Assembly: GCF_000383915.1 (NCBI RefSeq) | Contig: NZ_KB912942.1 | Coordinates: forward strand, 1,710,561 to 1,774,560 | Source of the DNA: Amycolatopsis benzoatilytica AK 16/65 | Lineage (GTDB): Bacteria; Actinomycetota; Actinomycetes; Mycobacteriales; Pseudonocardiaceae | Direction of reading: 5' to 3' | Length of the DNA stretch: 64,000 nucleotides | In this document: in pieces, positions 279-60,680 of the stretch | How the letters are laid out: each line of letters begins with the position of its first letter | Position numbering within the stretch: position 1 is the first letter of the stretch | Translations under genes and position numbers: made by a program | The notes under the pieces: model-generated | The model's input: only the letters and a program-made list of their open reading frames with translations | Databases searched by the model: none | What the model was told of the DNA's origin: nothing

Positions 279-295
279 AAGGGTCGAAAGTCACC
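279..295 (-). promoter_or_regulatory. DosR-like box upstream of the leftmost gene
   Basis: On the minus strand it reads GGTGACTTTCGACCCTT, close to the mycobacterial DosR half-site consensus GGGACTTNNGGCCCT. It lies about 113-130 bp upstream of the start at 166. Confidence 0.45.
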
Positions 296-416
296 GCTGC
301 GGCCACCGTGGACGGTTCGGCGATTCCGGTGCCGCCATTGGGTTTTCTCCAGTGGACGATCGACCGGACGGCGGCCCGGCCTGGCAAGGAATCTCCGGAT
401 CCGGCGGCGCTGATCG

Positions 417-872
417 TCATCGCGGCCGCCGCACGGGCCGGCCGGAATTCCGCGGCGACGGGATTGCCTCGAGGTCTTGTCCGCCGGGAAGCCGGGTGCG
501 CGGAGCCGGGCGGCCGTTGTTCCAGGCGAGCGCGGCGGCGAGCTGCTGCGGCGTGAGCCGTGCGTTGCGCGCGATCCGGCTGAGCGGTGCGTCCTGAAGG
601 GACGGGTGCCGGCTGGCCTGGCTGAGCAGCTCGAACCACCATTGCTCGTCGACCCAGCCGGTCCGGGCTTCGCGGACGATTTCGGTCATGTGCTCGTCGC
701 CGCAGGCATAGACCAGGCGCTGTCCGTGCCGGGCCGGTTCGGCGAAGTCCACTGCGGACGAGTCCGGCACCAAAGCGGCCTGCAGCTGCCCGTGCGGGAT
801 CGGCTGCCCGCAGTGTTCGCACCGGCGGCGGCGGCAGGTTTGGGCGGCGGTCGGGAAAATGGGTGGCGACAT
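417..872 (-). CDS. Small zinc-knuckle protein (paralogue of the protein at 63353-63757)
   Basis: This is a 151-residue protein of unknown function. The start at 872 (MSPPIFPTAAQT) was chosen because GGAG sits just before it; the frame is open further upstream but without a ribosome site. A CEHCG knuckle near residue 21 and a YACGDEH motif about 45 residues later form a likely C-x2-C...C-x2-H zinc site. A conserved core WVDEQWWFELLSQAS follows, then a basic helical tail. The right-end paralogue has the same ligands and the same WVDEQWWFELL block, so the fold is real. Zinc binding is inference; a nucleic-acid or protein adaptor role is only a guess. Confidence 0.8.
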   Translation of the reverse strand: MSPPIFPTAAQTCRRRRCEHCGQPIPHGQLQAALVPDSSAVDFAEPARHGQRLVYACGDEHMTEIVREARTGWVDEQWWFELLSQASRHPSLQDAPLSRIARNARLTPQQLAAALAWNNGRPAPRTRLPGGQDLEAIPSPRNSGRPVRRPR

Positions 873-1141
873 CGCATCTCCGGGTAGGGCTGGACCGGTT
901 CGGTGTCGCAGAGTCAGAGCACCGGGGGCTGGGGCGGCAGCGGCGTCTGCGTAGTCCGGCACGGTTCGGCTTGCCGATCTCCGTACGGAAAACCCCACTG
1001 TAGGGGGGCACCCGCAGGTTGCCAATGCGGCCGTTCAGGTGGCCCGGACCGGTTTCTGACGGCCTGGTAAAGGATTTCTCTGGCCTGCGGCCGACTTCCG
1101 GTCACCAGCCGACGCGATCGTCGCCGGTGCGAGTGAAAAAA

Positions 1142-1879
1142 TCAGCGCGGCGAATCCCGCAGCACCTGACCCGGCGGCAGTGCGGCGTGCGCGAGCTCTT
1201 CCGCTACGGCGGTGAGCCGGAGGTTGTGGCGGCGGCTGTACGCGCGCAACCGTTCGAACGCGGTGTCGACCGGGATGCCGCCCGCGTGGGCGAGCACTCC
1301 TTTCGCTTGCTCGATGACCACCCGGCTGTCGAGCGCGTGCTGCAGCTGCCCGGAGAGCTGCTTGCCGCGGCGGACCGCGCTCTCCTGGAGGATGCCGATG
1401 GTCGCGACATCAGCGAGTGCGCGGGCGGCGGCGACTTCGGTCTCGGGCAGCGGCTCGGCACTGAGCAGGACGAGGGAGCCGACGACGTTGTCGCGCAGCC
1501 GCAGCGGAAGAGCGTGCGCGGCGTGGTAGCCCGCCTCCAGCGCCTGGGAGACGAACTCCGGGCTCCGGGCCGAGATCGCGGCGAGATCTGGCACGTGGAC
1601 TGGCTGGCCGGTGCGAACGGTGTCGACGCAGTGCCCCGCTACGTCCCGGAGGGCGTCGAACAACGGGGCGGTGTCACCGGTCGCCGCGATCACCTGGACC
1701 TTGCCGTCCCGGTCAGCGAGGAGGAGGCCCGCCGCGCCGGCGGACAGCAGCGTGACGCAGTATCCGGCGAGCCGGCGGAGCAGGTCGGCCGCGGCGTAGC
1801 CGTCGGCGAGCGTGTCGGCCAAGTCCACGAAGGCCTGGAGCAGGCCCGGTTCCTGAGCTAGAACTTGCCGTTCGCGCAT
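1142..1879 (-). CDS. GAF-ANTAR transcription antitermination regulator
   Basis: This 245-residue protein has an N-terminal GAF domain (about residues 25-160, with LAGYCVTLLSAGAAGLLLAD and a second strand block ending in HALPLRLRDNVVGSL). An ANTAR RNA-binding domain follows at about 178-235, recognised by LDSRVVIEQAKGVLA and FERLRAYSRRHN. Proteins of this layout sense a small molecule or redox state through GAF and bind tandem RNA hairpins to prevent premature termination. GGAGG precedes the ATG at 1879 by about 8 nt. It is closely related to the protein at 62358-63122 at the other end of the window. Ligand and RNA targets cannot be seen here. Confidence 0.88.
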   Translation of the reverse strand: MRERQVLAQEPGLLQAFVDLADTLADGYAAADLLRRLAGYCVTLLSAGAAGLLLADRDGKVQVIAATGDTAPLFDALRDVAGHCVDTVRTGQPVHVPDLAAISARSPEFVSQALEAGYHAAHALPLRLRDNVVGSLVLLSAEPLPETEVAAARALADVATIGILQESAVRRGKQLSGQLQHALDSRVVIEQAKGVLAHAGGIPVDTAFERLRAYSRRHNLRLTAVAEELAHAALPPGQVLRDSPR

Positions 1880-1994
1880 CGTCGGCCTCCGTCGGAGTCA
1901 TGCTGAAGGTGCGCGCGCCGGGCGGCGCGTCGCGGGGCAGGTACCAGGCCGATGGGGACGCCACCCATATCTGTCTCCATTCGGCGGCGTTGCG

Positions 1995-2468: not shown

Positions 2469-2793
2469 GGTGGCCTCGCTTTCGTTGCGTCTCAGCTTTC
2501 GCTTCGGCGCACCCGGCGACGAGGGCCGCACTGCCTGGGCCGGAGTGCCCGGCGGCCCCTGCTCGCGGGCGCTTTTCCGGGCGGAAAGGTGACTTTGGCC
2601 ACCGTGCTGGCTGCGGTGGCGCGACGGCCGGCGTCCGGCCGAGGCTCCCTGGCGAACCAGGCGGGTCGCGGCGCTGGTTCAGGAGGTGCGTGCGCGGCTC
2701 TCTCGCTGTGCGAGGCCGGCCGTGGGTACGGGTCGGCTGCGGGAGACTGCGTCCAGCGGGCGGCTCGCGCGGGCGTTGGCGGCTGGAGCGGTG
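2469..2793. other. Intergenic stretch between the zinc-ribbon gene and ftsH
   Basis: No convincing gene is seen in these 325 bp: frames open here lack a ribosome site and have shadow-like composition. The stretch holds the putative promoter of the downstream minus-strand gene, including the DosR-like box at 2588-2603, and the 3' trailer of ftsH. No strong terminator hairpin is obvious. Confidence 0.5.
2588..2603 (-). promoter_or_regulatory. DosR-like box upstream of the zinc-ribbon gene
   Basis: GGTGACTTTGGCCACC fits GGGACTTNNGGCC with few changes and is itself a near palindrome. It lies about 120 bp upstream of the ATG at 2468. Confidence 0.5.
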
Positions 2794-5056: not shown

Positions 5057-5091
5057 GGCGCCACTGTGCGGAATGGACCGGCCGGACAAGA

Positions 5092-5107
5092 AGGGTCAAA
5101 CGTCCCC
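5092..5107 (-). promoter_or_regulatory. DosR-like box for the small membrane protein-ftsH operon
   Basis: The minus strand reads GGGGACGTTTGACCCT, an excellent match to the palindromic DosR pattern. It lies about 36-51 bp upstream of the start at 5056. It favours 5056 over 5089 as the start, because 5089 would nearly touch the box. Confidence 0.6.
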
Positions 5108-5165
5108 GGCCGACGGGCCGGGTGGATGTCGTTCGGGCGGCCGGGGACGAGGATCCTTGGCCGGG

Positions 5166-7498: not shown

Positions 7499-7516
7499 GA
7501 GAGGACCGTTCCCAGA
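7499..7516 (-). promoter_or_regulatory. Weak DosR-like box in the divergent promoter
   Basis: The minus strand reads TCTGGGAACGGTCCTCTC, a relaxed GGGACnnnGTCC-type site 48-65 bp upstream of the nitroreductase start. It is weaker than most others in the window. Confidence 0.35.
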
Positions 7517-7570
7517 GAAGAAGTTCCGCGCGGGCGGGGCATTGCGGCCCCGCCCGCGCGAGCGCGAGTG

Positions 7571-7585
7571 AGGCCCTTCGGCCCT
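7571..7585 (+). promoter_or_regulatory. DosR-like box upstream of the P1B ATPase
   Basis: AGGCCCTTCGGCCCT matches GGGACTTNNGGCCCT except at three positions in the left half. It is 48-62 bp upstream of the ATPase ATG. Confidence 0.45.
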
Positions 7586-7632
7586 TCCACCGGCGACGCG
7601 GCCGGGCGCATCGTGCGGCCGGGAGGTTACAC

Positions 7633-11036: not shown

Positions 11037-11094
11037 CGCCCGAATCTCCGCCTCGCGCCGGGCTCGCCGGGAGGGCCGCAGCGCCTCAGCCGCC

Positions 11095-11109
11095 AGGACC
11101 AAAGACTCC
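11095..11109. promoter_or_regulatory. DosR-like box in the divergent promoter of the protease and stress operon
   Basis: AGGACCAAAGACTCC fits the palindromic form GGGACYWWAGTCCC with small changes. It sits 59 bp from the protease start (11036) and 91 bp from the plus-strand start at 11200, so it could serve both. Confidence 0.55.
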
Positions 11110-11199
11110 GGCGCCGCGGACGTCCGCCAGCAGCGCCGGGCGGCGACGGCGGCTTAGTTTCGGCCGCGAGGGGATGGGTTCCGGCGGAGGAGGCAGGCG

Positions 11200-11370: not shown

Positions 11371-12173
11371 CCAGGCCGGTGGTCGCCGGGGTCGACGGGT
11401 CCGCGGCCGCGCTGGCCGCGGTCCGGTGGGCGGCGGCCGAGGCGGTGCGGCGCGGGACCGAGCTGGTGGTGTTCCGCGCCGAGCTGGTCGACGGCCCGGA
11501 CTTGCTGCCGCACCGGAAGCCGCTCGGCGACGCCGAGATGCTGCTGGAACCGGGCTACCGCCAGCTCTGCGTCGCCGCGGAGGCGGCGCGTTCAGCGGTG
11601 CCCGCGGTCGCGGTGCGCCGGCGGCTCCGGCTCGGCGCCGCGGCCGAGCAGCTGATCGCGATGTCCGGCGAGACCGAGCTGATCGTGCTCGGCTCGCACG
11701 GGGTCGGCGGCCTGCGGGGCGCGGTGATCGGGTCGGTGGCGCTGCGGACGGCCGCGCTCGCGCGCTGCCCGGTGGCGGTCGTCCGCGGCCGGGCGGAGGC
11801 GGACGGGCCGGTCGTGGTCGGCATCGACGAATCGGACCGGAGCGAACGGGCGCTGGCCGTCGCGTTCGAAGCGGCCGCGGCGCGCGCGGCGGCGGTGGAG
11901 GCGGTGCACGTGTGGCACGACGGCAGCCCGGGCCGCGAAAGCGCGTTGCGGGATCAGGTGGCCGCGTGGTCCCGGAAGCATCCGGAGGTGCCGGTGCGGG
12001 TGCACCTGGTGCGGGCGAGGTCGGCGGCGCGCGCGCTGAGCGGGATGTCGTCCGGCGCGCAGCTGGTCGTGGTGGGCAGCCGGGGCCGGGGACCGGTCGC
12101 CGGGGGCCTGCTCGGCTCGACCGGGAACTGGCTGCTGGCGCACGCGGACTGCCCGGTCGAGGTGGCTCGCTGA
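11367..12173 (+). CDS. Universal stress protein, tandem USP domains
   Basis: This 268-residue protein has two USP domains (about 1-140 and 148-268). Each starts with a short strand ending in G-(V/I)-D-(G/E)-S and ends with an ATP-type loop: GSHGVGGLRGAVIGS in the first, GSRGRGPVAGGLLGST in the second (G-2x-G-9x-G-S/T pattern). ATP-binding tandem USPs such as Rv2623 are core DosR-regulon products that slow growth. The N-domain is cysteine-poor and both loops look intact. It is coupled to the preceding 56-residue gene and is followed 22 bp later by the flavodoxin gene. Confidence 0.93.
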   Translation: MTRPVVAGVDGSAAALAAVRWAAAEAVRRGTELVVFRAELVDGPDLLPHRKPLGDAEMLLEPGYRQLCVAAEAARSAVPAVAVRRRLRLGAAAEQLIAMSGETELIVLGSHGVGGLRGAVIGSVALRTAALARCPVAVVRGRAEADGPVVVGIDESDRSERALAVAFEAAAARAAAVEAVHVWHDGSPGRESALRDQVAAWSRKHPEVPVRVHLVRARSAARALSGMSSGAQLVVVGSRGRGPVAGGLLGSTGNWLLAHADCPVEVAR

Positions 12174-12195
12174 ACCGGAAGAAAGGCGGCGCGGG

Positions 12196-12813
12196 ATGAA
12201 AATCGTGATCGCGGTGGCGACCCGGCACGGGTCGACGCGGGAAATCGCCGAGCAGATCGCGGCATCGCTGAGAGCGGGCCTCGAAGAAGCCGGGACGTCG
12301 GCCGAGGTCGACGTCGCCGACGCAGCGCACGTCGAGTCGTTCGCCGGCTGCGACGCGGCGGTGATCGGCAGTGCCGTCTACTTCGGACACTGGCTCGACC
12401 CGGCGCGGCAGCTGGTCCGCGAGCACCGGGAAGAACTGTCGCGGATCCCGGTCTGGCTGTTCTCCAGCGGGCCGGTCGGGCAGCGGACGCGGCCCGGCGA
12501 GGACCCGGTGGACGCGACCGACGTGCTGGCCTGCTGCGCTGCCCGGGAACATCGGCTGTTCGGCGGCAAGATCGACCGTTCGGTGCTGCATTTTCCGGAG
12601 CGCGCGGTGGTCGCCGCGCTGCGCGCGAAGGACGGCGACAACCGGGACTGGCCGGTCATCCGTGCCTGGGGCCAGGCGATCGCCCGTCAGCTCAGCGACG
12701 CCCGCCGGGGACCTTCGTCCCTCGGCTTCGGGCAGTCCGGCAGCGGTGCGACGGCCGCCGCGCGCGGTTTGCTGAAGGCGCGACCCCGTTCGCGACGAGA
12801 GGAGAGAGCATGA
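12196..12813 (+). CDS. Flavodoxin-domain protein
   Basis: This 205-residue protein begins MKIVIAVATRHGSTREIAEQI, the phosphate-binding loop of flavodoxins (T-x-x-G-S/T), and continues with AAVIGSAVYFGHWLDPA and WLFSSGPVG, typical of the flavodoxin branch that includes HemG-like protoporphyrinogen oxidases and mycobacterial Rv-type flavodoxins. It would bind FMN and pass electrons. The last 40 residues are low-complexity and encode, at the DNA level, the DosR-like box for hsp20. Its stop overlaps the hsp20 ATG (ATGA at 12810-12813). Partner and reaction are unknown. Confidence 0.88.
   Translation: MKIVIAVATRHGSTREIAEQIAASLRAGLEEAGTSAEVDVADAAHVESFAGCDAAVIGSAVYFGHWLDPARQLVREHREELSRIPVWLFSSGPVGQRTRPGEDPVDATDVLACCAAREHRLFGGKIDRSVLHFPERAVVAALRAKDGDNRDWPVIRAWGQAIARQLSDARRGPSSLGFGQSGSGATAAARGLLKARPRSRREERA
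12707..12723 (+). promoter_or_regulatory. DosR-like box inside the flavodoxin 3' end, upstream of hsp20
   Basis: GGGGACCTTCGTCCCTC is one of the strongest palindromic matches in the window and lies 87-103 bp before the hsp20 ATG. It suggests an internal promoter that boosts hsp20 independently of the operon. Confidence 0.6.
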
Positions 12814-13217
12814 CTTCCCTGTTGCCCGGTTCCCGGATGGCGCTGCCCAGCATCGCCGCCTGGATGGAACGCCCGTGGCCGTTCGCCGAGCACAACCCGG
12901 TGCGGATCGAGGAATCCGCGGAGGGCGGCAAGTACACGGTGCGCGCCGAGCTGCCCGGGTTCGACCCGGACAAGCACATCACGGTGACCACGCACGACGG
13001 GCTGCTGACCATCGAAGCCGACCGGGAGGCGAAGAAGAGCACCGACGGCCACAGCGAGTTCTACTACGGCAAGTTCAGCCGCACGGTGACCCTGCCCGCG
13101 GGCGCGGAAGCCGCCAAGGTGACCGCGACCTACGTCGACGGCATCCTCGAGATCTCGATGCCGATCGCCGATCAGCCGCACGAGAAGCAAATCAAGATCC
13201 ACGTCGACAAGGCGTGA
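12810..13217 (+). CDS. Hsp20 / alpha-crystallin small heat-shock protein
   Basis: This 135-residue protein contains the alpha-crystallin domain at about 30-125: VRIEESAEGGKYTVRAELPG, GLLTIEADRE, FSRTVTLP and the closing VDGILEISMPI. It has the short N- and C-terminal arms of the HspX (Acr) type from the mycobacterial DosR regulon. It would form oligomers that hold unfolding proteins and stabilise dormant cells. GAGGAGAGAG lies before the ATG, which overlaps the flavodoxin stop. A GC-rich hairpin follows the stop. Confidence 0.95.
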   Translation: MTSLLPGSRMALPSIAAWMERPWPFAEHNPVRIEESAEGGKYTVRAELPGFDPDKHITVTTHDGLLTIEADREAKKSTDGHSEFYYGKFSRTVTLPAGAEAAKVTATYVDGILEISMPIADQPHEKQIKIHVDKA

Positions 13218-13225
13218 CGTGCGTC

Positions 13226-13253
13226 AGCGGCGGGCGCGGTTGCGCCCGCCGCT
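13226..13253 (+). terminator. GC-rich hairpin after hsp20
   Basis: AGCGGCGGGCGC and GCGCCCGCCGCT form a perfect 12-bp stem around a GGTT loop, 8 bp after the hsp20 stop. There is no U-tract; it may terminate or only attenuate, and could help keep hsp20 transcript levels above those of the next gene. Confidence 0.65.
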
Positions 13254-13271
13254 TCGTGTGAGGAGACGGGG

Positions 13272-15914
13272 ATGAGCGTGGACCTGGCGGTACGAGTCCT
13301 GCTGGCCGACGGCCAGGTAGGTCTGGTGCGCCCGCTCGGGCCGGCCGACGCGGACGCCGTGCTGCGGCTGCACACCGGCCTCGGCGAACGGGACCGCTAC
13401 TTTCGGTTCTTCGGCCCGATGCCGTCCACTGTGGATAAATTGACCGCGAAGATCGCCGAGGCGCCCGGCGTTGGGCACGCGGCGTTCGGCTGCTTCATCG
13501 GCGGCGTGCTGGTCGGCGTCGCGCACTACGAGCGAGCCGGGTCGAGCGCGGACGCGGAGGTCGCGCTCGTCGTCGACGGCACCCAGCGCACCCACGGCAT
13601 CGCCACGCTGCTGCTGGAACATCTCGCCGCGGCCGCGCGGGCGCACGGAATCGACCGCTTCGTCGCGGAAGTGATGGCGGAGAACGCGAAGGTGATCCGG
13701 GTGTTCGCCGAACTCGGGCTGCGCTATCGCATCGACCATCGCGGACCGGAATGGTCGGTCGAAATCGAGCTCGACGGCGAGGACCGCTACCCGGACGCGT
13801 TCGTCCGCCGCGACGAAATCGCCGAGGCGGCGAGCCTGGCGCATCTGCTGCGACCGGCGTCGGTCGCGGTGATCGGCGCGGGCCGGCGCCCCGGCTCGGT
13901 CGGCCGTGCGGTGCTCGCGAACCTGCTGCGGAGCGGATATCCCGGCTCGGTCGAAGCGGTGCACCCGGTGGCGTCGGAAATCCTCGGCGTGCGCTGCGCG
14001 CCGTCGGTGGCGCGGCTGAGCCGGACTCCGGAGCTGGCGGTGATCTGTCTCCCGGCCGAAGCGGCGGCGAACGCGGTGGAGGACTGCGGTGCGCGCGGTG
14101 TGGCCGCGGCGGTGGTGATCTCGTCCGGGCTGACCGGCTCCGAGGCGGGCGCCCGGGTGCGGGAATCGGTGCGCCGGCACGGAATGCGCCTGGTCGGGCC
14201 GAACTGTCTCGGCGTGCTTTCGACCGATCCGTCCTGCCCGCTGGACGCGACTTTCCTCGCCCGCGGGCCGCTGCCCGGGCACATCGGCGTCGCCACCCAG
14301 TCGGGCGGCGTCGGGATCGCCCTCGCCGAAGCGCTGACCGGCCTCGGCCTCGGCGTCTCGGCGCTGGTGTCCACTGGCGACAAGTACGACGTCAGCGGCA
14401 ACGACCTGCTGCTGTGGTGGGCGAGCGACCGGCGCACCGAAATCGTGGCGCTCTATCTGGAATCTTTCGGCAATCCCCGCAAGTTCGGCCGGTTGGCGGC
14501 GCGGCTGGCCCGCACCCGGCCGGTGCTCGCGGTGCGAGCGGGCAGCGGGGGCACTGCCCAGCGCGCGGCCGCGTCGCACACTGCGGCGGCGGCGACTCCG
14601 GCGGTGACCCGCGACGCGCTTTACGCGCAGGCAGGCATCATCGCGGTCGACACGGTCGCCGGGCTGGTGGACGCGCTCGCGGCGATCTCGTGGCAGCCGC
14701 TGCCAGCCGGACGGCGGGTGGCGGTGCTGAGCAACGCCGGCGGGGCGGGCGTGCTCGCCGCGGATGCCTGCGAGCGGGAAGGGCTCACGATGGCGGAGCT
14801 GTCCGCGGAGACCGCGGATCAGCTGCGTGCCGTGCTGCCGGCCCAGGCCGCTGCGCAGAACCCGGTGGACACGACCGCCGCGGTACCGGCCGCGGAATTC
14901 GGGCAGGCGCTTCAGATCGTGCTCGCCGATCCCGGGGTGGACGCGGTGATCGCCGCGACCGTGCCGACCGCGGCGGGCGATCCCTCGGTCGCGCTGGCCG
15001 GAGCGCTGCCCGGGCTCGGCAAGACGGTGCTCGCGGTACGGCCCGGGCAACGGGAGCGGGTCGCCCCGCTGAACGCGGCGGGGCCCGCGGGAACGGCGTG
15101 CTACGACGACCCCGCGACCGCGGCCAGTGTGCTCGCCCGGCTGGCGGAGTACGCGGAGTGGCTGGCCCGGCCGCACGACGAGGAAGCGCCGCCGGAGATG
15201 GACTGCGCCGCGGTACGGGAGTTCGCCGCCGCACGCGCGGAGGAACACGAGGGATGGTTGTCGCCGGCAGCGGCCGCCGAGCTGCTCCGGCTCGCCGAGA
15301 TCCCTTGCGTGGAAACGTATTACGCGCGAAACGAAACCGAAGCGGCCCGCGTCGCGCAGGATTCGTCCGGGCCGTTCGCGGTCAAGGCGGACGCGGCCGG
15401 GCTGCTGCACAAATCGGCGGGCGGCGGGGTGCTGCTCGGGGTCGAGGGCCCGGCCGGAGTGCGCGAAGCGTACCGGCTGCTGCGCGGCCGGTTCGGCCCG
15501 GCGCTGCACGGCGTGACGGTCCAGCCGATGGCCGACCGCGGCCGCGAACTGCTCGTCGGCGTGCGCTCGGACCCGGTGTTCGGCCCGCTGGTGGTGTTCG
15601 GGCTGGGCGGGGTCGACACCGACCTGCTCGCCGACCGGGCCGCCCGGCTCGCGCCGCTCACCGGCGCGGACGCCGATCTGCTGCTCGACGGCCTGCGTTC
15701 GGCGGAGGCGCTGTGGGCGTCCGGGATCGACCGGGCCGCAGTGCGCCGGTTGCTGCTGCGGGTCGGCCGGCTGGCGACGGTCGTGCCCGAGATCGCGGAG
15801 CTGGACCTGAACCCGGTGGCGGCGCGGCCGGACGGGTGCCGGGCGCTCGACGTCCGCATCCGGCTCGAACGGCCCGCGGCCGGCGATCCGTACCTGCGCA
15901 AGCTGTCCGGCTGA
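13272..15914 (+). CDS. GNAT acetyltransferase fused to ADP-forming acyl-CoA synthetase (Pat-like)
   Basis: This 880-residue protein begins with a GNAT domain (about 15-170; VDGTQRTHGIATLLLEHLAA is the acetyl-CoA loop). A CoA-binding Rossmann domain follows (about 190-290; SVAVIGAGRRPGSVGRAVL), then ligase domains with VGPNCLGVLST, TQSGGVGIAL and RAAASHTAAAATPA, and a C-terminal ATP-grasp region (about 660-880; FAVKADAAGLLHKSAGGGV). The same architecture occurs in Streptomyces PatA-type lysine acetyltransferases, where the ligase part is often inactive but binds acetyl-CoA. Here it precedes acetate kinase by 21 bp. It may make acetyl-CoA plus ADP reversibly, acetylate enzymes such as acetyl-CoA synthetase, or both. 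Confidence 0.92.
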   Translation: MSVDLAVRVLLADGQVGLVRPLGPADADAVLRLHTGLGERDRYFRFFGPMPSTVDKLTAKIAEAPGVGHAAFGCFIGGVLVGVAHYERAGSSADAEVALVVDGTQRTHGIATLLLEHLAAAARAHGIDRFVAEVMAENAKVIRVFAELGLRYRIDHRGPEWSVEIELDGEDRYPDAFVRRDEIAEAASLAHLLRPASVAVIGAGRRPGSVGRAVLANLLRSGYPGSVEAVHPVASEILGVRCAPSVARLSRTPELAVICLPAEAAANAVEDCGARGVAAAVVISSGLTGSEAGARVRESVRRHGMRLVGPNCLGVLSTDPSCPLDATFLARGPLPGHIGVATQSGGVGIALAEALTGLGLGVSALVSTGDKYDVSGNDLLLWWASDRRTEIVALYLESFGNPRKFGRLAARLARTRPVLAVRAGSGGTAQRAAASHTAAAATPAVTRDALYAQAGIIAVDTVAGLVDALAAISWQPLPAGRRVAVLSNAGGAGVLAADACEREGLTMAELSAETADQLRAVLPAQAAAQNPVDTTAAVPAAEFGQALQIVLADPGVDAVIAATVPTAAGDPSVALAGALPGLGKTVLAVRPGQRERVAPLNAAGPAGTACYDDPATAASVLARLAEYAEWLARPHDEEAPPEMDCAAVREFAAARAEEHEGWLSPAAAAELLRLAEIPCVETYYARNETEAARVAQDSSGPFAVKADAAGLLHKSAGGGVLLGVEGPAGVREAYRLLRGRFGPALHGVTVQPMADRGRELLVGVRSDPVFGPLVVFGLGGVDTDLLADRAARLAPLTGADADLLLDGLRSAEALWASGIDRAAVRRLLLRVGRLATVVPEIAELDLNPVAARPDGCRALDVRIRLERPAAGDPYLRKLSG

Positions 15915-15935
15915 CCCGGGCACGAGGAGGAGCCA

Positions 15936-17060: not shown

Positions 17061-17075
17061 CGGCGAGGCGGCGCG

Positions 17076-17699
17076 ATGACCACCGCCGTGTTCGCCTGGG
17101 ATCGCCCCGCCCGCGCCGTCCTGGTCGACGCGCTCGCCCGCCTGGACGGACGCCGGTTCGCGGTCGAAACCCGGCCCGGCGAGCTGGTGATCGCCCGCAC
17201 CGGGCGGCTCCGCCACGACGACGGGCGGCTTGTCCTCGCCGGCTGCGGAGCCGCGCTGTCCACCGCGTGGATTGTGCTGCGCGTGCTCGGGGTGCGTCCC
17301 CGGCTGTCGTTGCCGCACGATCCCGAACGGCCCGACGTAGTGGCGGTTGTGACGGCCGGCGGGGACGAACCGGCGCGGGCGCGCGATTGGGACCGGTATC
17401 TCGCGTTGCGGGCGGTCCGCGGTCCGGCGTCCGGGCAGTCGGTGCCGGTCGAGGGCGCGGCCGGGGAACTGTCCCGGGAAAACCACTGGCCGCACACCCG
17501 GGTGCTGCCGCCGCGCCAGGCCGGCAGCTGGGAACTCGCAGTAGTCGCCGATGGGACGGGCGCCGAGGTGCACGTTCTGCTCGGGGCGGCGGTCCATTCG
17601 CTGCGCGTCGCGGCCGCGGTCCGCGGCTGGGCGACCGAGGCCCGTGCCGGGCTGCCGGGCGGGGCTCCGCACGAGGTCCTGCGCGTCTTCGAGAGCTGA
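17076..17699 (+). CDS. Eroded Acg-type nitroreductase homologue
   Basis: This 207-residue protein aligns by eye with the Acg family but is reduced. The block [20 protein letters not shown] matches the LLLSCGAALFNL core, and the C-terminal block [20 protein letters not shown] matches the RAGQAMQRVLLTATAEG helix of the intact copies. The N-terminal APS-x-HNTQPW signature is absent and about 110 residues are missing. The frame is open and flanked by close operon neighbours, so it is a small gene rather than an obvious pseudogene. FMN binding is doubtful; it may act as a partner or decoy subunit. This reading is inference. Confidence 0.75.
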
Positions 17700-17709
17700 A
17701 GGGAGCCCG

Positions 17710-23193: not shown

Positions 23194-23203
23194 GGAGCAG
23201 AAA

Positions 23204-45827: not shown

Positions 45828-45893
45828 CGCGCCTCCAAGGCATCGCAGGAGCGGTTGATTCCGTTCTACGGCACGGTCCGGCCACGGCGCGGC

Positions 45894-45910
45894 GACCGAA
45901 AGTCCCCGAG
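45894..45910. promoter_or_regulatory. DosR-like box between the DsbA-like and first kinase genes
   Basis: The minus strand reads CTCGGGGACTTTCGGTC, matching GGGACTTNNGG exactly in its left part. It is 67-83 bp upstream of the DsbA-like gene and 114-130 bp upstream of the kinase on the other strand. Confidence 0.62.
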
Positions 45911-46023
45911 GCCGCGCCGAACGTCACCGTTGCGGGCCGTTCTTGACGGTGCTCGCCTTGACCGGCAAAACTGAATAGTTCGCAGCGCAGCCAAACGCAG
46001 CAGCCGACGGGTGGGGAGCCGAG

Positions 46024-47724
46024 GTGACCGAGCGGGACGCGCCGGAGAGGGCCGGGCTGACCTTTCCCGACGAGCCGAGACTGGAACTGGACCAGTTGCT
46101 GGGTCAGCTGATCGACCGTGCCCAGGAGGTGATGGGCACGCAAGGACGGCTGCGCGGGCTGCTGCGCGCGACCCAGGCGATCACCGGCGCGCTGGACCTG
46201 CCCGCCTTGCTGCGCCGCATCGTCGACGCGTCCCGGGAACTGGTCGGCGCCCGGTATGCGGCGCTGGGGGTGATCGGGCCGGACGGGCGGCTGCTGGAGT
46301 TCGTGCACGCCGGGATGGACGACCAGGCGGTGGCCCGGATCGGACATCTGCCGGAGGGCAAGGGACTGCTGGGCGCGGTGATCGAGGACCCGCGGCCGAT
46401 CCGGCTGGCCCGTCTGCAGGACGACCCTCGCTCGACCGGCTTCCCGGACGGGCACCCGCCGATGACCAGCTTCCTTGGCGTGCCGGTTCGCGCGCGCGGC
46501 TCGGTGTTCGGCAACCTCTACCTGGCCGACGGCGTGCACGGGCCGTTCACCGAGGAGGACGAACAGCTCGCCCTCGCGCTGGCTGCCGCGGCGGGCAGCG
46601 CGATCGAGAACGCCCGGCTGTACGAGACGGCGCGCACCCGCCAGGAATGGCTCCGCGCGTCGGCGGCGATCACTCGCGAGCTGCTGTCCGCGGAGTCCGG
46701 CGATCCGCTCGACCGGGTGCTGGACAACGTGCGCGGCCTGGCGGAGGCCGGCCTGGTCTGCGTGCTCCGCCCGGCCGACGGCGGCGCGGTCCGGATCGAG
46801 CGCGCGATCGGCACGGTCTCCGACGGGCTGGCCGGGACGGTGCTGGCGGAGGGCGCCCCGGCGGCCGGCTCGATGCTGGCGAACGGGAAACCGGGCATCC
46901 GGTCGTGGCCGGGCGAGCGGACGCGGCTGCCGGTCGTGGCCGCGTCGGCGCTGAATCTGGACACGGTCCTGGCAGTCCCGCTGACCGGCCAGGACGGCGT
47001 GCTGATCGCCGCCCGCGTCGCCGGCCGCCCCGCGTTCACCGACGAGGACCTGGAGATGGCGGCCTGGTTCGTCGACCAGGCGGCGGTGGCCACCGAGCTG
47101 GCGCAGGCCCGCACCGAACGGGAACTCGCCGCGTTGCACGACGAGCGGGACCGGATCGCCGCCCAGCTGCACAGCGAGCTCCTGCAACGGCTCTACTCGG
47201 CCGGGCTGTCCCTGCACACCACCGTCGGTCTGGCCCGGTCGTCGGTCGTCGGCGCCCGGATCCGGGAGACGATCACGGAGCTGGACGACATCATCGAGCG
47301 CGTGCAGGGCACGGTGTTCGCGCTGGAAGATCCGCCTGCGCCGGCGCCCGCGCCGGTCCGCGCCGAAGTGCTGCGCGTACTGGCGGACGCGGGCGAAACG
47401 CTCGGGTTCGCGGTGTCCACGCAGCTGACCGGGAAACTGGACGAGATCCCGGCGGAGGCGGTGGTCCCGTTCCTCGACGAGGCATTGCGGCTGGTCGCCC
47501 GGCACGGCGCGGCCCAGGCGGCGGAAGCCGAGATCACGGCGGAACCGGAGCGGGCGACGGCGGTCGTCAGCTACGACGGGGCGGGCGACCTCGTGCGGAC
47601 CGCCGGGCCGGAGCTGGCCTCGCTCGCCGAACAGGCGACCCGGCGGGGCGGCGTGTTCGCCGTCGACGGGCACCGGATGAGCTGGACCGTGCCGACCGGC
47701 ACGGGACCTCCTGCGCGGAGATGA
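46024..47724 (+). CDS. DevS/DosT-like heme-GAF sensor with degenerate ATP-binding domain
   Basis: This 566-residue protein has GAF-A (about 55-200), GAF-B (about 220-360), a HisKA_3 region (about 368-440) and a reduced HATPase region. GAF-A keeps [20 protein letters not shown]; the His of HPPM (H144) equals the proximal heme ligand H149 of M. tuberculosis DevS. The H-box His is present ([15 protein letters not shown]383). The ATP domain is eroded: the N-box is [10 protein letters not shown] (no Asn), the first G-box is YDGAG, and the GLGNL box is ELASL. It is probably a heme sensor that cannot bind ATP well, acting through a heterodimer or as phosphatase or antagonist. It lies just upstream of devR. 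Confidence 0.92.
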
Positions 47725-47739
47725 TGACTTTGGTCCTCC
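47723..47739 (+). promoter_or_regulatory. DosR-like box 1 upstream of devR
   Basis: GATGACTTTGGTCCTCC overlaps the kinase stop codon and lies 80-96 bp before the devR ATG. Its position suggests autoregulation, as in M. tuberculosis. Confidence 0.55.
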
Positions 47740-47745
47740 CCCCGG

Positions 47746-47760: not shown

Positions 47761-47818
47761 GTACGCTCGTTGCCTGACCGCACGGCGCAGCGCCGTGCCC
47801 GAAATGGGAGAAGAACGG

Positions 47819-48460
47819 ATGCTGCGGGTTTTCCTGGTCGATGATCACGAGGTGGTTCGTCGCGGTGTGGCGGACCTGCTGGAAGAGTCGGAGGAGCTGA
47901 CGGTTGTCGGCCAGGCCGGCAATGTTTCGCAGGCGCTGGCCCGGATTCCGGCGCTGCGCCCGGATGTGGCGGTGCTGGACGTGCGGCTGCCGGACGGCAA
48001 CGGGATCGAGCTGGCTCGTGAGCTGCGGTCGCGGCTGCCGGAGCTGATGTGCCTGATGCTCACCTCCTACACCGACGAGCAGGCAATGCTGGACGCGGTC
48101 ATGGCCGGGGCTAGCGGTTACGTGATCAAGGACATCAAGGGTCTTGACCTGGTTTCGGCGGTGCTGGAGGTGGGGGCGGGCAAGTCGCTGCTGGATGCGC
48201 ACGCGGCGGCTGCGTTGATGTCGAAGCTTCGCGACAGTGCGGAGAAGAAGCGCGGTCCGTTGGCTCAGCTGTCGGATCAGGAACGCACGCTGCTGGAGCT
48301 GATCGGCGAGGGGCTGACGAACCGGCAGATTTCCGAGCGCATGTTCCTGGCCGAGAAGACGGTGAAGAACTACGTTTCGCGGCTGTTGACCAAGCTCGGC
48401 ATGGAGCGGCGCACGCAGGCTGCCGTGCTGGCCACCGAACTGCGGGGCCAGCGGCAGTAA
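47819..48460 (+). CDS. devR: DevR/DosR-type response regulator (NarL/FixJ family)
   Basis: This 213-residue regulator has a receiver domain ([13 protein letters not shown] with the DD acidic pair; phosphoacceptor Asp54 in [11 protein letters not shown]; Thr/Ser in LMLTSY; Lys in YVIKDI). A LuxR/NarL-type HTH follows ([25 protein letters not shown]). Asp54 falls at the same number as in M. tuberculosis DosR, and [11 protein letters not shown] matches the DosR recognition helix. GGGAGAAG precedes the ATG; a longer GTG start at 47795 exists but is less likely. Two DosR-like boxes upstream suggest positive autoregulation. It should control most genes in this window. Confidence 0.96.
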
Positions 48461-49494: not shown

Positions 49495-51562
<2,068 letters not shown>

Positions 51563-51612
51563 GTCTCTGCTCCGTTCCGGCTACACAGTCACAGCCGAGC
51601 GAGGGAGGGCGA

Positions 51613-51630
51613 CAGGGCCGGAAGTCCTCG
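51613..51630 (-). promoter_or_regulatory. DosR-like box upstream of the DUF1876 gene
   Basis: The minus strand reads CGAGGACTTCCGGCCCTG: GGACTTCCGGCCCT matches the mycobacterial consensus at all but one position. It is among the best two or three sites in the window. Confidence 0.68.
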
Positions 51631-51678
51631 TCGTAGGGAGGCCTGAACTGCGGAAAGGTTGCATTGTCCGGACGCGCC

Positions 51679-52146: not shown

Positions 52147-52205
52147 CGGATGCTCCTTTCTCGGAAGGTCGGGCCGATCGTGGCGCCGGTCCGGCGCGGC
52201 GGGCT

Positions 52206-52220
52206 AGGGCCGGAGGTCAT
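52206..52220 (-). promoter_or_regulatory. DosR-like box upstream of the USP
   Basis: The minus strand reads ATGACCTCCGGCCCT, with a near-consensus right half. It is 60-74 bp before the start at 52146. Confidence 0.55.
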
Positions 52221-52251
52221 CGGCGAACCCGGGGACGTCTGCGCCGGGCCC

Positions 52252-52269
52252 GATGACTTTCGGCCTCAG
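52252..52269 (+). promoter_or_regulatory. DosR-like box upstream of the nitroreductase-ABC-MBL operon
   Basis: GATGACTTTCGGCCTCAG matches GGGACTTNNGGCCCT at most positions. It is 57-74 bp before the ATG at 52326. Confidence 0.6.
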
Positions 52270-55785: not shown

Positions 55786-57020
55786 CCGGCTCGCTGCTGA
55801 CCTTCCGAGGCACCGCCGGGGAAAGCTTCCAGCTGGACGTCGCCATGCCCGGGAGCCGGATTCTCGTCGGCTGCGGCGCGGCGGGTGAAGGGCCCGCGCC
55901 GGACGCGGTGGTGCTCCTGGACGCCACGCTCGACCAGTGCGGCCAGCTGCCGCGACTGGTCGCCGACGGCTGGGCGGGACCGGTATACGCGACGCCGACG
56001 ACCGCGGCCCGGGTCCCGCTGGTGCTCGCCGACGCGGCGCAGCTGCTGGCGGAGGAGGCCGAGTGCGCGGCCGCGGCCGGCTGGCCGGAACCGGCTTCGC
56101 CAGGAAAGCTGGATGTCGCCGGGGTGGCGGCGCTGCTCAAGCCGCTCGCGCTGGGAACGCCGCACCGGATCGAGGGCGGTGCCGTCCTCCGCTTCGGCGC
56201 GGCCGGGCGGGCGCCGGGAGCCAGCTGGGCGGAACTTTCGCTCGGCGCGAGGCGGCTGGCGGTCGTACCGGCGGTGGGCAGCATGCACCACCCCCTGCTC
56301 GCGCTGCCGCAGCCGCGGCCGGCGTGCGACACGCTCGTGCTGACCAGCCCGCCCTGCCACGGCGGCAGCGAGCACTACGTCGGCCGGTTCGCGGCGGCGG
56401 TGCACCGGGCGGTGAGCCGCAACGGCAGCCTGCTGATCCCGGTCTCCGCGGCCGGGCTGACCGACGTTGTCCTGACCGTCTTGCGGGACCTCACCGACGC
56501 GCGGGAGATCCCGCCGCTTCCGGTGCTTCTCGACAGCCCGATCGGGCTGGACCTGGTCGCGCAGCAAAGCGGGGTCCGCCTGCCGGAGACGCTCGTCGAA
56601 CACCGGGAGGCCGGGGATGCGCGGCTGCCGCGCGGTCCGGCGATCGTGCTGGCCGGGACCGAGACGGCGGAGTACGGCCGCGTGCGCAGCCACCTGGAGC
56701 GGATGCTGCCGGACCCGAGTCACGGCGTGCTGCTGGCCGGGCCGGTCCCGCCCGGCACGCCGGCCGCGCGGCTCGGCGCGGGGGAGCGGCAGGTCTCGGT
56801 GCGCGGCCGGTACCTGCCGGTGCGGGCGGAGATCACCCGGACCGGCGACTTCGCCACCACCGCGCGGGACGCGGAGTTCCGCGTCTGGGCGGAATCCGGC
56901 CCGCCGCCGGAAACGGCGTTCCTGCTGCGCGCGGGCGCGGACCGGACCGCCCGTACGCTCCGCGCCGACAACGGATGGTGCACGGTCGTTCCCGCCGACG
57001 GCGAGCAGGTGCTGTGGTGA
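55782..57020 (+). CDS. Metallo-beta-lactamase/beta-CASP-fold protein lacking metal ligands
   Basis: This 412-residue protein keeps the plan of MBL/beta-CASP RNA-processing hydrolases. The stretch GQLPRLVADGWAGPVYATP matches the sequence after the metal motif in active relatives; GSLLIPVSAAGLTDVVLTVL and PVLLDSPIGLDLV are beta-CASP landmarks; QVSVRGRYLPVRAEI matches the C-terminal motif. But the HxHxDH site is DATLDQ (47-52), the GDLG aspartate site reads PAVGS, and the usual ESTYGDR is TSPPCHG. Catalysis by zinc is therefore unlikely. It is translationally coupled to the ABC exporter, so a structural or RNA-binding role is possible. Confidence 0.85.
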   Translation: MTGSLLTFRGTAGESFQLDVAMPGSRILVGCGAAGEGPAPDAVVLLDATLDQCGQLPRLVADGWAGPVYATPTTAARVPLVLADAAQLLAEEAECAAAAGWPEPASPGKLDVAGVAALLKPLALGTPHRIEGGAVLRFGAAGRAPGASWAELSLGARRLAVVPAVGSMHHPLLALPQPRPACDTLVLTSPPCHGGSEHYVGRFAAAVHRAVSRNGSLLIPVSAAGLTDVVLTVLRDLTDAREIPPLPVLLDSPIGLDLVAQQSGVRLPETLVEHREAGDARLPRGPAIVLAGTETAEYGRVRSHLERMLPDPSHGVLLAGPVPPGTPAARLGAGERQVSVRGRYLPVRAEITRTGDFATTARDAEFRVWAESGPPPETAFLLRAGADRTARTLRADNGWCTVVPADGEQVLW

Positions 57021-57036
57021 GGGCCGTTGGTCCTCC
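57019..57036 (+). promoter_or_regulatory. DosR-like box upstream of a nitroreductase
   Basis: GAGGGCCGTTGGTCCTCC (complement GGAGGACCAACGGCCCTC) matches AGGACnnnnGGCCCT well. It is 86-103 bp before the ATG at 57122 and overlaps the previous stop. Confidence 0.62.
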
Positions 57037-57121
57037 GATGTCGGGTCAGCCGCCGCTATCCGGAAAGGACCGCCGGGCCCGACGCTGAACCGGTAGCCCA
57101 CGGAACCGCCCGGAGACCGCG

Positions 57122-58755: not shown

Positions 58756-58815
58756 GGCAGCCTCCGTTCGCCGCGGGAGTGCTTCGACGATCTCGCCGCG
58801 TCCCCAAGCGGGCCA

Positions 58816-58830
58816 AGGGTCTTTGGTCCT
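58816..58830. promoter_or_regulatory. DosR-like box upstream of the CBS protein
   Basis: The minus strand reads AGGACCAAAGACCCT, the palindromic GGGACYWWAGTCCC form. It is 61-75 bp before the start at 58755; it is also 124-138 bp before the Rv1733c-like gene on the other strand. Confidence 0.62.
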
Positions 58831-58953
58831 TGCCGCAATGCCCTCCGAACCGGGTACCGCGTCCCGTCCACCCCGGGGACAACGCCTCTTCGGCCAGCCG
58901 GTCGCCGGGACGATTCTGAGGGCGGAATCACCGTACGGCGAAAGGTGCGAGAG

Positions 58954-59538
58954 ATGAATGCGTTGCGGTGGCGGCATCTGCTCTTCCCCGGGCGCCGTTC
59001 GGTCGCCCGGGTATCGGATCGCGTGCAGAGCGGACTGCTTCTGCTCTCCGTTCTCGTCGCGCTGGCGGCGGTCCCGTTCTCGGCCGCCGCGGGCTCGATG
59101 CTCTACGCTCACCAGGCGCCGATTTCGGCCGAGCAAGTCGCCTCGCGCACCGAGACGACCGCGGTGCTGCTGGCCGACGGCCCGGCGACGTCGGTCACCG
59201 GGCGCAGTGGGGTCGTCGCGAACTCGGCTCCCACCGCCGCGACCTGGCAGGCGCCCGACGGATCGCGCCGGGCCGGCAACGTGGACGCGGACGAGGGCAC
59301 CCGCCGCGGCGATCCGGTCTCGATCTGGGTCGACCGCGCGGGCAACGTGACCAGTCCGCCGCTGACCGCCGCGGCGGTCCTGGTCGACGCGGTGTGCGCG
59401 GGGATCGGCCTGTGGGTCTCGGTGTGCCTGCTGCTCGCCGGCCTGTACGGCGGCACCGTGCTGGTGATGAACCGCCACCGGCTGGCCGAATGGCAGCGCG
59501 AATGGGACATCGAGCAGTCGAAGCGGGCGCACTCGTGA
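58954..59538 (+). CDS. Rv1733c-like transmembrane protein
   Basis: This 194-residue protein has two transmembrane helices (about 25-48 and 143-167) around an extracytoplasmic domain of about 95 residues. The order RRHLLFPGRRSVARVSDRVQ-type start, the helix, the domain with SVTGRSGVV and WQAPDGSRRAGNV, and the tail ending NRHRLAEWQREWDIEQ match Rv1733c and its paralogues. That protein is a strong DosR-regulon antigen. AAAGGTGCGAGAG precedes the ATG. The stop overlaps the USP start. Confidence 0.9.
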   Translation: MNALRWRHLLFPGRRSVARVSDRVQSGLLLLSVLVALAAVPFSAAAGSMLYAHQAPISAEQVASRTETTAVLLADGPATSVTGRSGVVANSAPTAATWQAPDGSRRAGNVDADEGTRRGDPVSIWVDRAGNVTSPPLTAAAVLVDAVCAGIGLWVSVCLLLAGLYGGTVLVMNRHRLAEWQREWDIEQSKRAHS

Positions 59539-59936
59539 CCGGGGGGAGCGCGGACATCGTCGTCGGCGTCGACGGTTCCGCGGCCAGCCTCGCGGCTCGG
59601 CAGTGGACACTGACCGAAGCGCGGCAGAGCGGGCGTACGGCGAAAGCCGTGCACGCCCGCCCGGCCGGCATCGCGACGTCGTGCTGGGAACCGGCCGCGC
59701 TGGCGGCGGCCGCCGGGGCTCCGTTCGGCACTGAGACCGTCGACGGCCTGCCCGGACCGACGTTGGTGGAGGCGTCGGCGGGCGCGGAGATGCTGGTACT
59801 GGGCAGCCACGGGCAACACGGGCTGTTGCGGCAGCTGGTCGGCTCGGTCTCGGCTTACTGCCTGCGCGAGGCCGCCTGCCCGGTGGTCGTCATCCCCGCT
59901 CGCACGGTCGGCACGCTCGCGCCGCCGCGATGCTGA
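59535..59936 (+). CDS. Universal stress protein, short single domain
   Basis: This 133-residue USP begins at GTG with SADIVVGVDGSAASLAARQW. The nucleotide loop is GSHGQHGLLRQLVGSVS. It lacks part of the central helix region found in the 169-residue USP at 22684, to which it is related (DGLPGPTLVEASAGAEMLVL against DGAPGPALVRASAGAAMLVL). It overlaps the Rv1733c-like gene by GTGA and ends exactly where the convergent gene ends. Confidence 0.88.
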   Translation: MTGGSADIVVGVDGSAASLAARQWTLTEARQSGRTAKAVHARPAGIATSCWEPAALAAAAGAPFGTETVDGLPGPTLVEASAGAEMLVLGSHGQHGLLRQLVGSVSAYCLREAACPVVVIPARTVGTLAPPRC

Positions 59937-60581
59937 TTATTCGGCGGGGCGCAGGAATCGGCGCGGATCGCCGGCCGCGCGGGCCCCGCTGTCGAGCCAC
60001 TTCGTGAATCCCCGGCGGTCACGGCGTTCCAGCTCGTCGAGGTACGCCTGGCGGGCGGCGATGACGGCCTGCCGGCCCTGCTCGTCGCTGGCGCGTTGCA
60101 GCAGCAGGAAACTCCGCCGCCACGCGAGGCACAGCTCGTCGGTCGAAAGCGAAGCGGCCGTGACCGGCGGCACCGGAGGGACCGGCACCGGACGGACCGG
60201 CAGCGGCGGGCGGCGGGTTCGAACCGGGCGCTGGGGGGCGGTCCGGATCTGCCACTGCGCCCAGAGAGCCGCGCCGAGGAGAAGTCCAGTGCTCGCCAGC
60301 GCGAGCGACGGTCCGGCCAGCACGCCGACGGTGACCGCGAACAAGCCGGTGACCACCAGCAGCGCCGCGAGCGCCGCGCTGGCCCGTCCCACGGCGTGCC
60401 GTGGGCCGAACTGTCGTTCCACCCACGGGACGTCTTCGAAACAGAGCGACACGAACGCCACCACCACCGCGACCGCCGCCACGATCCCGAGCAGTGCCGC
60501 CAGCGGAACCAGGACCACGCTGAAGGCGCACACCAAGACCGCGCACCAGAGAGTCGCGGACCACACCGCTCGAGCGAACAT
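59937..60581 (-). CDS. Membrane protein with YLDELERR C-terminal domain
   Basis: This 214-residue protein has four hydrophobic segments in the first 120 residues (for example TLWCAVLVCAFSVVLVPLAA), a Pro/Arg-rich linker, and a C-terminal helical domain of about 75 residues: LCLAWRRSFLLLQRASDEQG, AYLDELERRDRRGFTKWLD, GDPRRFLRP. The same C-domain forms the visible part of the gene at 63767-64000. ATG at 60581 chosen for GAGG 8 nt upstream; longer upstream starts would run through the DosR-like box. Function unknown. Confidence 0.8.
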   Translation of the reverse strand: MFARAVWSATLWCAVLVCAFSVVLVPLAALLGIVAAVAVVVAFVSLCFEDVPWVERQFGPRHAVGRASAALAALLVVTGLFAVTVGVLAGPSLALASTGLLLGAALWAQWQIRTAPQRPVRTRRPPLPVRPVPVPPVPPVTAASLSTDELCLAWRRSFLLLQRASDEQGRQAVIAARQAYLDELERRDRRGFTKWLDSGARAAGDPRRFLRPAE

Positions 60582-60664
60582 GGGCCACCTCGATCGTCTG
60601 CTCGGCGCGGAATTTCCCGCCCCGCCCGCGGATCCAGCCTGCGGACGGGCGTCCGGGCCGGGAT

Positions 60665-60680
60665 AGGGCCCAAGGTCGCC
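60665..60680 (-). promoter_or_regulatory. DosR-like box upstream of the membrane gene
   Basis: The minus strand reads GGCGACCTTGGGCCCT, a good match to GGGACTTNNGGCCCT. It is 84-99 bp upstream of 60581 and 137-152 bp upstream of the USP at 60817. Confidence 0.55.

Follow-up and report, generated by a model that had tools for sequence, protein, structure and literature searches.

Two described systems stand closest to the locus analysed here. In Streptomyces coelicolor the core regulon of the two-component system OsdR/OsdK is contiguous, running from SCO0167 to SCO0219 according to the sections of PMC5069765 that we draw on, and the OsdR sites in Table 1 of that paper are mostly predicted, several having been tested by electrophoretic mobility shift assay (EMSA). 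For Mycobacterium tuberculosis DevR (DosR), the sections used of PMC4973870 describe cooperative binding to tandem sites and name Asp54 as phospho-acceptor, and those used of PMC4082495 give His149 as the heme ligand of the sensor DosS and also name Tyr171. Here we analyse a 64,000-nucleotide stretch of Amycolatopsis benzoatilytica AK 16/65 (contig NZ_KB912942.1, bases 1,710,561-1,774,560 of a single-contig genome of 8.70 Mb), referred to throughout as the window, in which an earlier note had reported a DevR-like box before most transcription units. That observation is confirmed: the sites are real and, given a suitable motif, occur well above chance. The window very probably represents the dense left-hand portion of a DevR/OsdR (dormancy) regulon island, which is the best reading because box enrichment, boxes at mycobacterial devR loci and a nearly end-to-end match to DevR all point the same way; from these boxes and homologies we infer binding, phosphorylation, a hypoxia signal and the direction of regulation.

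Boxes in the window

Starts of genes and transcription units were taken from our own codon-based caller (61 genes in the window), and Pfam was run on 60 window proteins, namely 58 of the 61 called genes and two other open reading frames. Upstream DNA is the sequence up to 250 bp 5' of a called start that lies outside called genes. An initial expectation-maximization (EM) motif search came to include nearly all gaps (gamma 0.99). It gave way to a palindromic matrix 20 bases wide,.cGgGGaCg..cGtCCcCg., which was built from window upstream DNA with the 26 OsdR site sequences that Table 1 of PMC5069765 lists for S. coelicolor as its seed (the window matrix). A second matrix was made from the published OsdR sites alone (the OsdR matrix), and for cross-validation a matrix trained on one half of the window was scored on the other. 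The background consists of 39 stretches of 20 kb elsewhere in the same genome, with 72.2 kb of upstream DNA and 448 unit starts.

With the window matrix, 39 upstream sites score at least 6.5 and 26 of them at least 10, one of the latter (at 20385) being doubtful as it lies only 5 bp ahead of a start. Cross-validated density exceeds the background 17-30 fold (about 17-fold at scores of at least 9): the left-trained matrix finds 10 sites of at least 9 in 2.5 kb of the right half versus 17 in the 72.2 kb of background (p 9e-9), and the right-trained matrix finds 13 in 2.7 kb of the left half versus 20 (p 5e-11). The OsdR matrix, which owes nothing to the window, gives 11 sites of at least 9 in the 5.2 kb of window upstream DNA versus 7 in the background, about 20-fold (p 3e-9). 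Among the outcomes that the earlier note had named as counting against it were matrix hits no denser here than elsewhere in the genome; this was looked for in part, over the 0.78 Mb of background and 0.8 Mb around islands by matrix and over the whole genome by a stricter pattern, and the result did not refute the claim.

Counted by unit start, a box of at least 10 precedes 28 of 36 starts versus 20 of 448 in the background with the full matrix in-sample, and 20 of 36 versus 10 of 448 after cross-validation; OsdR-matrix boxes of at least 9 precede 15 of 36 versus 9 of 448. The 28 boxed starts are served by 18 gaps, divergent pairs having boxes in common, and box and start are mostly 27-130 bp apart. 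Between 2,468 and 60,817, 28 of the 31 starts are boxed, and the starts at the window ends have none (770 and 1879 on the left; 61565, 62358 and 63425 on the right). Hits of at least 11 anywhere in the window number 30, of which 24 lie upstream of a called gene and six do not, three of these six being intragenic with no obvious target.

The boxes tend to occur in arrays. Around strong sites, 36 from this island and 50 from 20 loci in relatives, secondary boxes at all distances number 48 versus 10.9 for scrambled matrices, and at 21-22 bp they number 8 versus 0.55 (maximum 5 in 60 scrambled matrices); the other common spacing is 28-30 bp (n=13). A literature search on box spacing found no paper.

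The boxes and principal genes are as follows, in window coordinates; figures after "box" are matrix scores.

278-297: box 15.3 at the left edge of the window, preceding no called window gene
2586..2605: box 13.2 before 2468(-), the leftmost box upstream of a called gene (window matrix)
5090..5160: two boxes, 14.2 and 12.3, between the diverging 5020(-) and 5243(+) (window matrix)
7512..7587: three boxes, 9.3, 8.1 and 12.8, in the divergent gap between nitroreductase-like 7451(-) and P-type ATPase-hemerythrin 7633(+) (matrix, Pfam)
11092..11111: box 12.2 in the divergent gap between M50 peptidase-CBS 11036(-) and start 11200(+) of a Usp run
11379..23905, +: run of Usp, flavodoxin, Hsp20, ATP-grasp/CoA-ligase, acetate kinase, cation ATPase, pyruvate phosphate dikinase (PPDK), Usp and CBS-BON genes (Pfam)
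12705..12724: box 16.3 within the flavodoxin gene, about 95 bp ahead of the hsp20 gene 12810-13217
24054..24095: tandem boxes 22 bp apart, 11.5 and 9.5, before 24126(+)
26739..26809: boxes 11.7 and 14.6 between the diverging 26695(-) and Usp 26896(+)
28040..28081: boxes 14.5 and 9.4, in tandem at 22 bp, before CBS-BON 28133(+)
30087..30164: boxes 11.2, 7.9 and 14.5 before 30070(-), two of the three spaced by 22 bp
31653..31721: three boxes at 21 and 28 bp, 12.7, 9.9 and 17.8, in the divergent gap between 31619(-) and the nitroreductase-Usp-CBS-PPK2 operon 31804(+)
35317..35336: box 11.3 before the Usp operon 35407(+)
39536..39555: box 16.1 before the CBS-Usp-phosphoketolase operon 39634(+)
45890..45930: boxes 6.7 and 10.4, in tandem at 21 bp, between the diverging 45827(-) and 46024(+)
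46024..47724, +: DevS/DosT-like protein with heme-type GAF and degenerate ATPase domain (probable pseudokinase)
47721..47740: box 16.3, also a strict-pattern match, before devR
47795..48460, +: devR/osdR-like response regulator; residue 1 of M. tuberculosis DevR is matched by the ATG at 47819
49528..49547: box 13.0 between the diverging nitroreductase 49448(-) and kinase 49588(+)
49588..51309, +: DevS/DosT-like sensor kinase with HisKA_3 and HATPase (Pfam, alignment)
51612..51631: box 13.5 in a 369-bp gap between converging genes, preceding no called gene
52204..52269: boxes 11.9 and 15.9 between the diverging Usp 52146(-) and nitroreductase operon 52326(+)
57018..57037: box 11.8 before nitroreductase 57122(+)
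58814..58833: box 15.6 between the diverging CBS 58755(-) and 58954(+)
60663..60731: three boxes at 21 and 28 bp, 11.1, 11.1 and 11.8, in the divergent gap 60581(-)/Usp 60817(+)

Seven of the eight sites that the earlier note ranked best (12707, 35319, 39538, 51613, 52252, 57019 and 58816) score 11.3-16.3; the eighth, 45894, is weak (6.7) beside its tandem neighbour at 45911 (10.4). The claim of two boxes for devR does not hold, since the gene has one strong box of its own and the supposed second is the weak pair before the upstream sensor gene. Usp domain matches number 24 in the genome, 16 of them in the window around devR and four more in 1.775-2.035 Mb.

Two other elements were seen in the same DNA. 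GAF-ANTAR proteins are encoded at both island ends in the window (1142-1879 and 61565-63122), where their genes have no box, and also beside a second devR described below (L038:585-1364). A 55-bp palindromic repeat occupies the gaps 6373-6499, 23948-24014, 35197-35263, 44993-45059 and 58240-58306; its half-sites match genome-wide, at up to two mismatches, 297 times on the + strand and 278 times on the - strand, and the exact matches listed lie nearly all on the + strand except around 6.0-6.4 Mb.

The regulator, its sensors and a second devR

The window regulator aligns with M. tuberculosis DevR (3c3w) at E 1.9e-94, residues 9-220 of its 221 lying on 1-211 of 225, and has a receiver and a LuxR-type helix-turn-helix domain, near full-length similarity that places it in the DevR/DosR group. 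The 11-residue stretch around the phospho-acceptor Asp54, placed by counting, is identical to that of DevR, as is a 13-residue stretch of 3c3w that we take to be the DNA-recognition helix. The nearest named records are from Amycolatopsis, at 86-89% identity.

The window matrix was then applied unchanged to devR loci of other genomes, counting upstream hits of at least 11 against 25 scrambled matrices at 79 of 80 loci (L210, a metagenome-assembled genome titled Bifidobacterium breve, was left out). Boxes were present in 30 of 35 loci of Mycobacteriaceae (84 hits versus a scrambled mean of 5.6, maximum 18), 22 of 23 of Nocardia (54 versus 4.0, maximum 13), all six of Amycolatopsis (16 versus 1.2, maximum 4), three of four of Geodermatophilaceae (9 versus 0.3, maximum 2) and seven of nine others (20 versus 1.5, maximum 4). 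The alignment to 3c3w, the matrix boxes and these boxes in other genera support the assignment of a DevR-type box and a DevR orthologue.

Both DevS-like proteins beside devR align with the heme GAF domains of DosT/DevS and keep the HPPM histidine, which by counting on the DevS chain is His149, Tyr171 then falling on the conserved tyrosine. The protein at 49588-51309 has this histidine and tyrosine together with HisKA_3 and HATPase, as expected of a DevS/DosT kinase. The protein at 46024-47724 also keeps the heme-GAF histidine and tyrosine; it gave no HATPase match in Pfam and has no intact N-box, the acceptor histidine being kept and the N-box Asn lost (EALRLVARH versus EAVSNAVRH). It is probably an oxygen-binding pseudokinase lying directly before devR. 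The same Asn is lost in its homologues from G001, G012 and both clusters of G010, one G010 homologue having lost the acceptor histidine too, and because these homologues keep the same pattern at 65-69% identity the gene looks like a maintained one. At the six named Amycolatopsis devR loci the pseudokinase was found in none within the DNA examined, and four have one kinase with the Asn. At two Nocardia devR loci (L229 and L235) the DevS-like kinase also has an N-box without Asn, so the residue may have been lost on more than one occasion.

The genome encodes four close DevR-like regulators: that of the window, one 99% identical to it, and two at 57% (2.93 and 6.82 Mb). The 99% copy, at 2,901,614-2,902,255 on the - strand (L038:1614-2255), sits behind an arginine deiminase operon of permease, deiminase, ornithine carbamoyltransferase and carbamate kinase genes, whose promoter gap has a box of 10.8 (2907993); further boxes near the paralogues lie at 2903272 (12.6) and 2931528 (14.7), and a kinase-like gene divergent from the operon (2908329-2910002) is also degenerate. 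The two devR copies match at 645 of 648 bases (window part 47808-48455), from 11 bases 5' of the ATG, a span that likely includes the ribosome site, to about five bases before the gene end, with unlike flanks. Among the relatives searched G010 has the most similar devR (94%); its arginine deiminase operon is 86% identical in DNA, with no devR in the 8.8 kb read downstream. The operons of G007 and G019 come with a 62-63% devR.

Three genomes of the genus, this one, G004 and G010, carry two devR copies at least 86% identical to the query. The two copies of G004 share 97.1% identity across a block of 670 bases, and their flanks show no comparable match. In the tree the pairs of this genome and of G004 each group by genome with 100/100 support, whereas those of G010 do not pair up. 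A recent copy or conversion of the devR coding unit in this genome is well supported, because the 645 of 648 match has unlike flanks, the G010 operon has no devR and the copies group by genome; recurrent homogenisation of devR is only suggested. No insertion element emerged as the carrier of the second devR in a comparison of flanks, which do not match, and of five short words of the 55-bp repeat, which are absent from 4 kb around, these being the only elements looked for. Since the copies in two of three such genomes are more alike mutually than to any other devR in the tree, regulator homogenisation is a measurable trait.

These paralogues bear on the earlier proposal that a single regulator runs the locus, of which one part stands, the DevR orthologue in the window; four close DevR-like regulators could nevertheless share the boxes. 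The boxes would then be DevR-family sites shared or split among the window regulator, its second copy at 2.90 Mb and the two 57% regulators, a network and not one regulator. The number of such regulators, the near-identity of the two devR copies and the three boxes beside two of the paralogues, one of them before the arginine deiminase operon, speak for a network, whereas the two 57% regulators are distant in sequence and the one at 6.82 Mb has nearly box-free surroundings (one upstream box of at least 10 in 3.6 kb). We regard such sharing as a serious possibility, while leaning against it.

Extent of the island and boxes in relatives

The regulon island extends beyond the window on one side. 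To the left, at 1.50-1.71 Mb, upstream DNA of 16.3 kb has five boxes of at least 10, near background (12 in 72.2 kb); as two of the five lie in the last 10 kb, this edge is not exact. To the right, 29.3 kb of upstream DNA at 1.775-2.10 Mb has 37 such boxes, an out-of-sample result (p 2e-11), and the last of them lies at 2.033 Mb. Boxes thus stay enriched to about 2.035 Mb, over some 320 kb, and the figure of about 60 kb first given for the locus was too small, the island running past 60.7 kb. In the right-hand stretch 36 of 168 units (21%) are boxed. A strict pattern derived from the window matrix, RRKGMCBWWVGKCMYY, has 33 sites in the 8.70 Mb: eight in the window, a count that is circular, eight in 1.775-2.035 Mb and 17 elsewhere, so that 8 of the 25 sites outside the window fall in 1.775-2.035 Mb, which is not circular (p 5e-7).

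Genes downstream of the right-hand boxes were listed from 29 of the 37 sites chosen by hand (mostly tandem neighbours were dropped, also 1800623 and 2015018), giving 39 genes of which 30 were scanned and 26 had a Pfam family. Among these are trehalose synthase, nicotinate phosphoribosyltransferase, cytochrome bd subunit I, HypF, a cytochrome b, Usp and CHAD, and further VIT1, PRPP synthetase, a GH65 hydrolase and a P-type ATPase with hemerythrin like that of the window.

Relatives differ in this respect. In G003 an interval of 83 kb (6.972-7.055 Mb), picked after the sites were seen, holds 11 of the 37 strict sites; it also contains 11 of the genome's 25 Usp hits, and because these were found independently the G003 island is an out-of-sample sign that the box marks such islands. 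It lies 1.1 Mb from the closest devR (5.848 Mb), with a 56% regulator at 7.369 Mb, a sign that devR need not sit inside such a box/Usp island. Strict sites are few in G004 (29 genome-wide versus 19 for the control), and each of its three closest devR copies has one or two nearby. A large archipelago in G012 was considered and rejected, the surrounding 460 kb being at background. The wide spread of boxes is a feature of some genomes and not general, given G012 at background, the few sites of G004 and the dense island of G003.

The position of the G003 island, its densest, so far from devR also invites the view that another stress regulator with a similar GGGAC..GTCCC palindrome binds the boxes and that DevR is a mere neighbour, DevR binding here being predicted only. 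Yet the motif agrees with the OsdR sites of S. coelicolor, several of which were tested by EMSA according to the part of PMC5069765 used, it marks devR loci in Mycobacteriaceae and Nocardia, and devR has its own box of 16.3, which makes a different regulator improbable.

Weighing the regulon island and comparison with described systems

If the window is part of a DevR/OsdR regulon island, then at low oxygen the heme-GAF sensor kinase 49588-51309 would phosphorylate the DevR orthologue 47795-48460, which would bind the 20-bp palindromic boxes, often tandem, in the 18 window gaps and turn on genes of stress response, redox balance and fermentation (Usp, Hsp20, CBS, nitroreductases, phosphoketolase, acetate kinase and PPDK), with cytochrome bd and HypF as predicted targets further right. 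The box of devR itself would provide positive feedback, and the second sensor (46024-47724), with heme pocket kept and ATPase residues lost, would probably act as a modulator.

Several observations weigh against this reading. The boxes are predicted sites that come from sequence and not from binding or expression, and gene and unit starts rest on our own simple caller. The literal consensus of the earlier note, GGGACTTNNGGCCCT, at up to three mismatches is not enriched (30 matches versus 24.95 +/- 5.12 in shuffles), nor is the full 20-base M. tuberculosis consensus with equal weights (three upstream sites of at least 6 in 5.2 kb versus 38 in 72.2 kb). Within the island the start 4641(-) and the divergent pair 44309(-)/44466(+) are unboxed, and good scores occur inside genes (13.4 at 43966, 13.3 at 46459 and 12.3 at 9509). 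The strict pattern is barely above its reversed control genome-wide, 33 versus 25, so its evidence lies in clustering and not in the total, and in G003 it gives 37 versus 28. Around the G012 devR there are three boxes in 20 kb with no wider enrichment (seven in about 36 kb of upstream DNA over 460 kb versus four in 24.7 kb) and no upstream site with the OsdR matrix; the two Haloechinothrix devR loci have no upstream hit of at least 11 with the window matrix. Nitrate reductase, a member of the OsdR island, was not among the 60 window proteins scanned with Pfam, elsewhere not having been searched.

That the motif is a by-product of repeats or GC-rich composition, inflated by the 55-bp palindromic repeats containing GGGCCCTT, has next to no probability: in its favour, the loose consensus alone is not above chance and the repeat has many half-site matches on the two strands, but none of the 39 sites overlaps a listed repeat copy, for which reason repeats were rejected as the cause of the boxes, cross-validated hits are 17-30 fold denser than the same-genome background, and boxes recur at the devR loci of other genera far above scrambled matrices.

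A broader reading of the lineage builds on the regulon island, and we offer it tentatively, as more doubtful than not. The dormancy switch would be a spread-out, self-copying circuit in which a promoter-less devR unit (ribosome site and gene) is copied or overwritten between loci, so that distinct hypoxia operons, such as that of arginine deiminase here, gain identical regulators. The output would be tuned by a DevS paralogue next to devR that binds oxygen but is catalytically dead, and boxes would be maintained across about 320 kb as a hypoxia archipelago. Among the listed titles and abstract beginnings on Amycolatopsis DosR/DevR/hypoxia, on OsdR, on DevR/DosR regulons in Actinobacteria and other genera, and on DevS/DosT pseudokinases or degenerate kinases, none described the island, the near-identical second devR or the conserved pseudokinase; PMC12189002 contains both "DevS" and "pseudokinase".

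The locus offers a testable mycobacterial-type dormancy regulon in a soil actinomycete of an antibiotic-producing genus, and because many of its targets are neighbours, promoter logic, from tandem boxes and their spacing to divergent sharing, is readable across many units at the same time. The conserved pseudokinase beside devR raises the question of what an oxygen-binding, non-phosphorylating DevS does, a question that M. tuberculosis, with two active kinases, does not raise.

Set beside the M. tuberculosis DevR/DosR regulon, the locus has the orthologous regulator, heme-GAF sensors, Hsp20 and Usp targets, the box core GGGAC..GTCCC and tandem sites in common. The M. tuberculosis regulon also has nitroreductase-type targets. 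It differs in that the AT-rich ends of its consensus are not conserved here and that the target genes of this locus are neighbours. DosS and DosT are both autophosphorylating kinases in the sections used of PMC4082495, whereas one of the two devR-adjacent sensors here is degenerate.

The S. coelicolor OsdR core regulon, as far as the sections of PMC5069765 used here go, shares contiguous Usp, nitroreductase, pyruvate phosphate dikinase, zinc dehydrogenase and hemerythrin genes around two-component genes, and palindromic boxes before most units, its 26 listed sites alone finding boxes here. It differs in its nitrate reductase/transporter genes SCO0213-0219, none of which has a counterpart among the 60 scanned window proteins. 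The box enrichment over about 320 kb, the near-identical second devR behind the arginine deiminase operon and the probable pseudokinase by devR are features read on the Amycolatopsis side only, the S. coelicolor side not having been compared for them. The layout had been called far more contiguous than that of M. tuberculosis, which is true of the sites; as a contiguous core regulon, SCO0167-SCO0219, is already described for OsdR in the same sections of PMC5069765, it is not new in kind.

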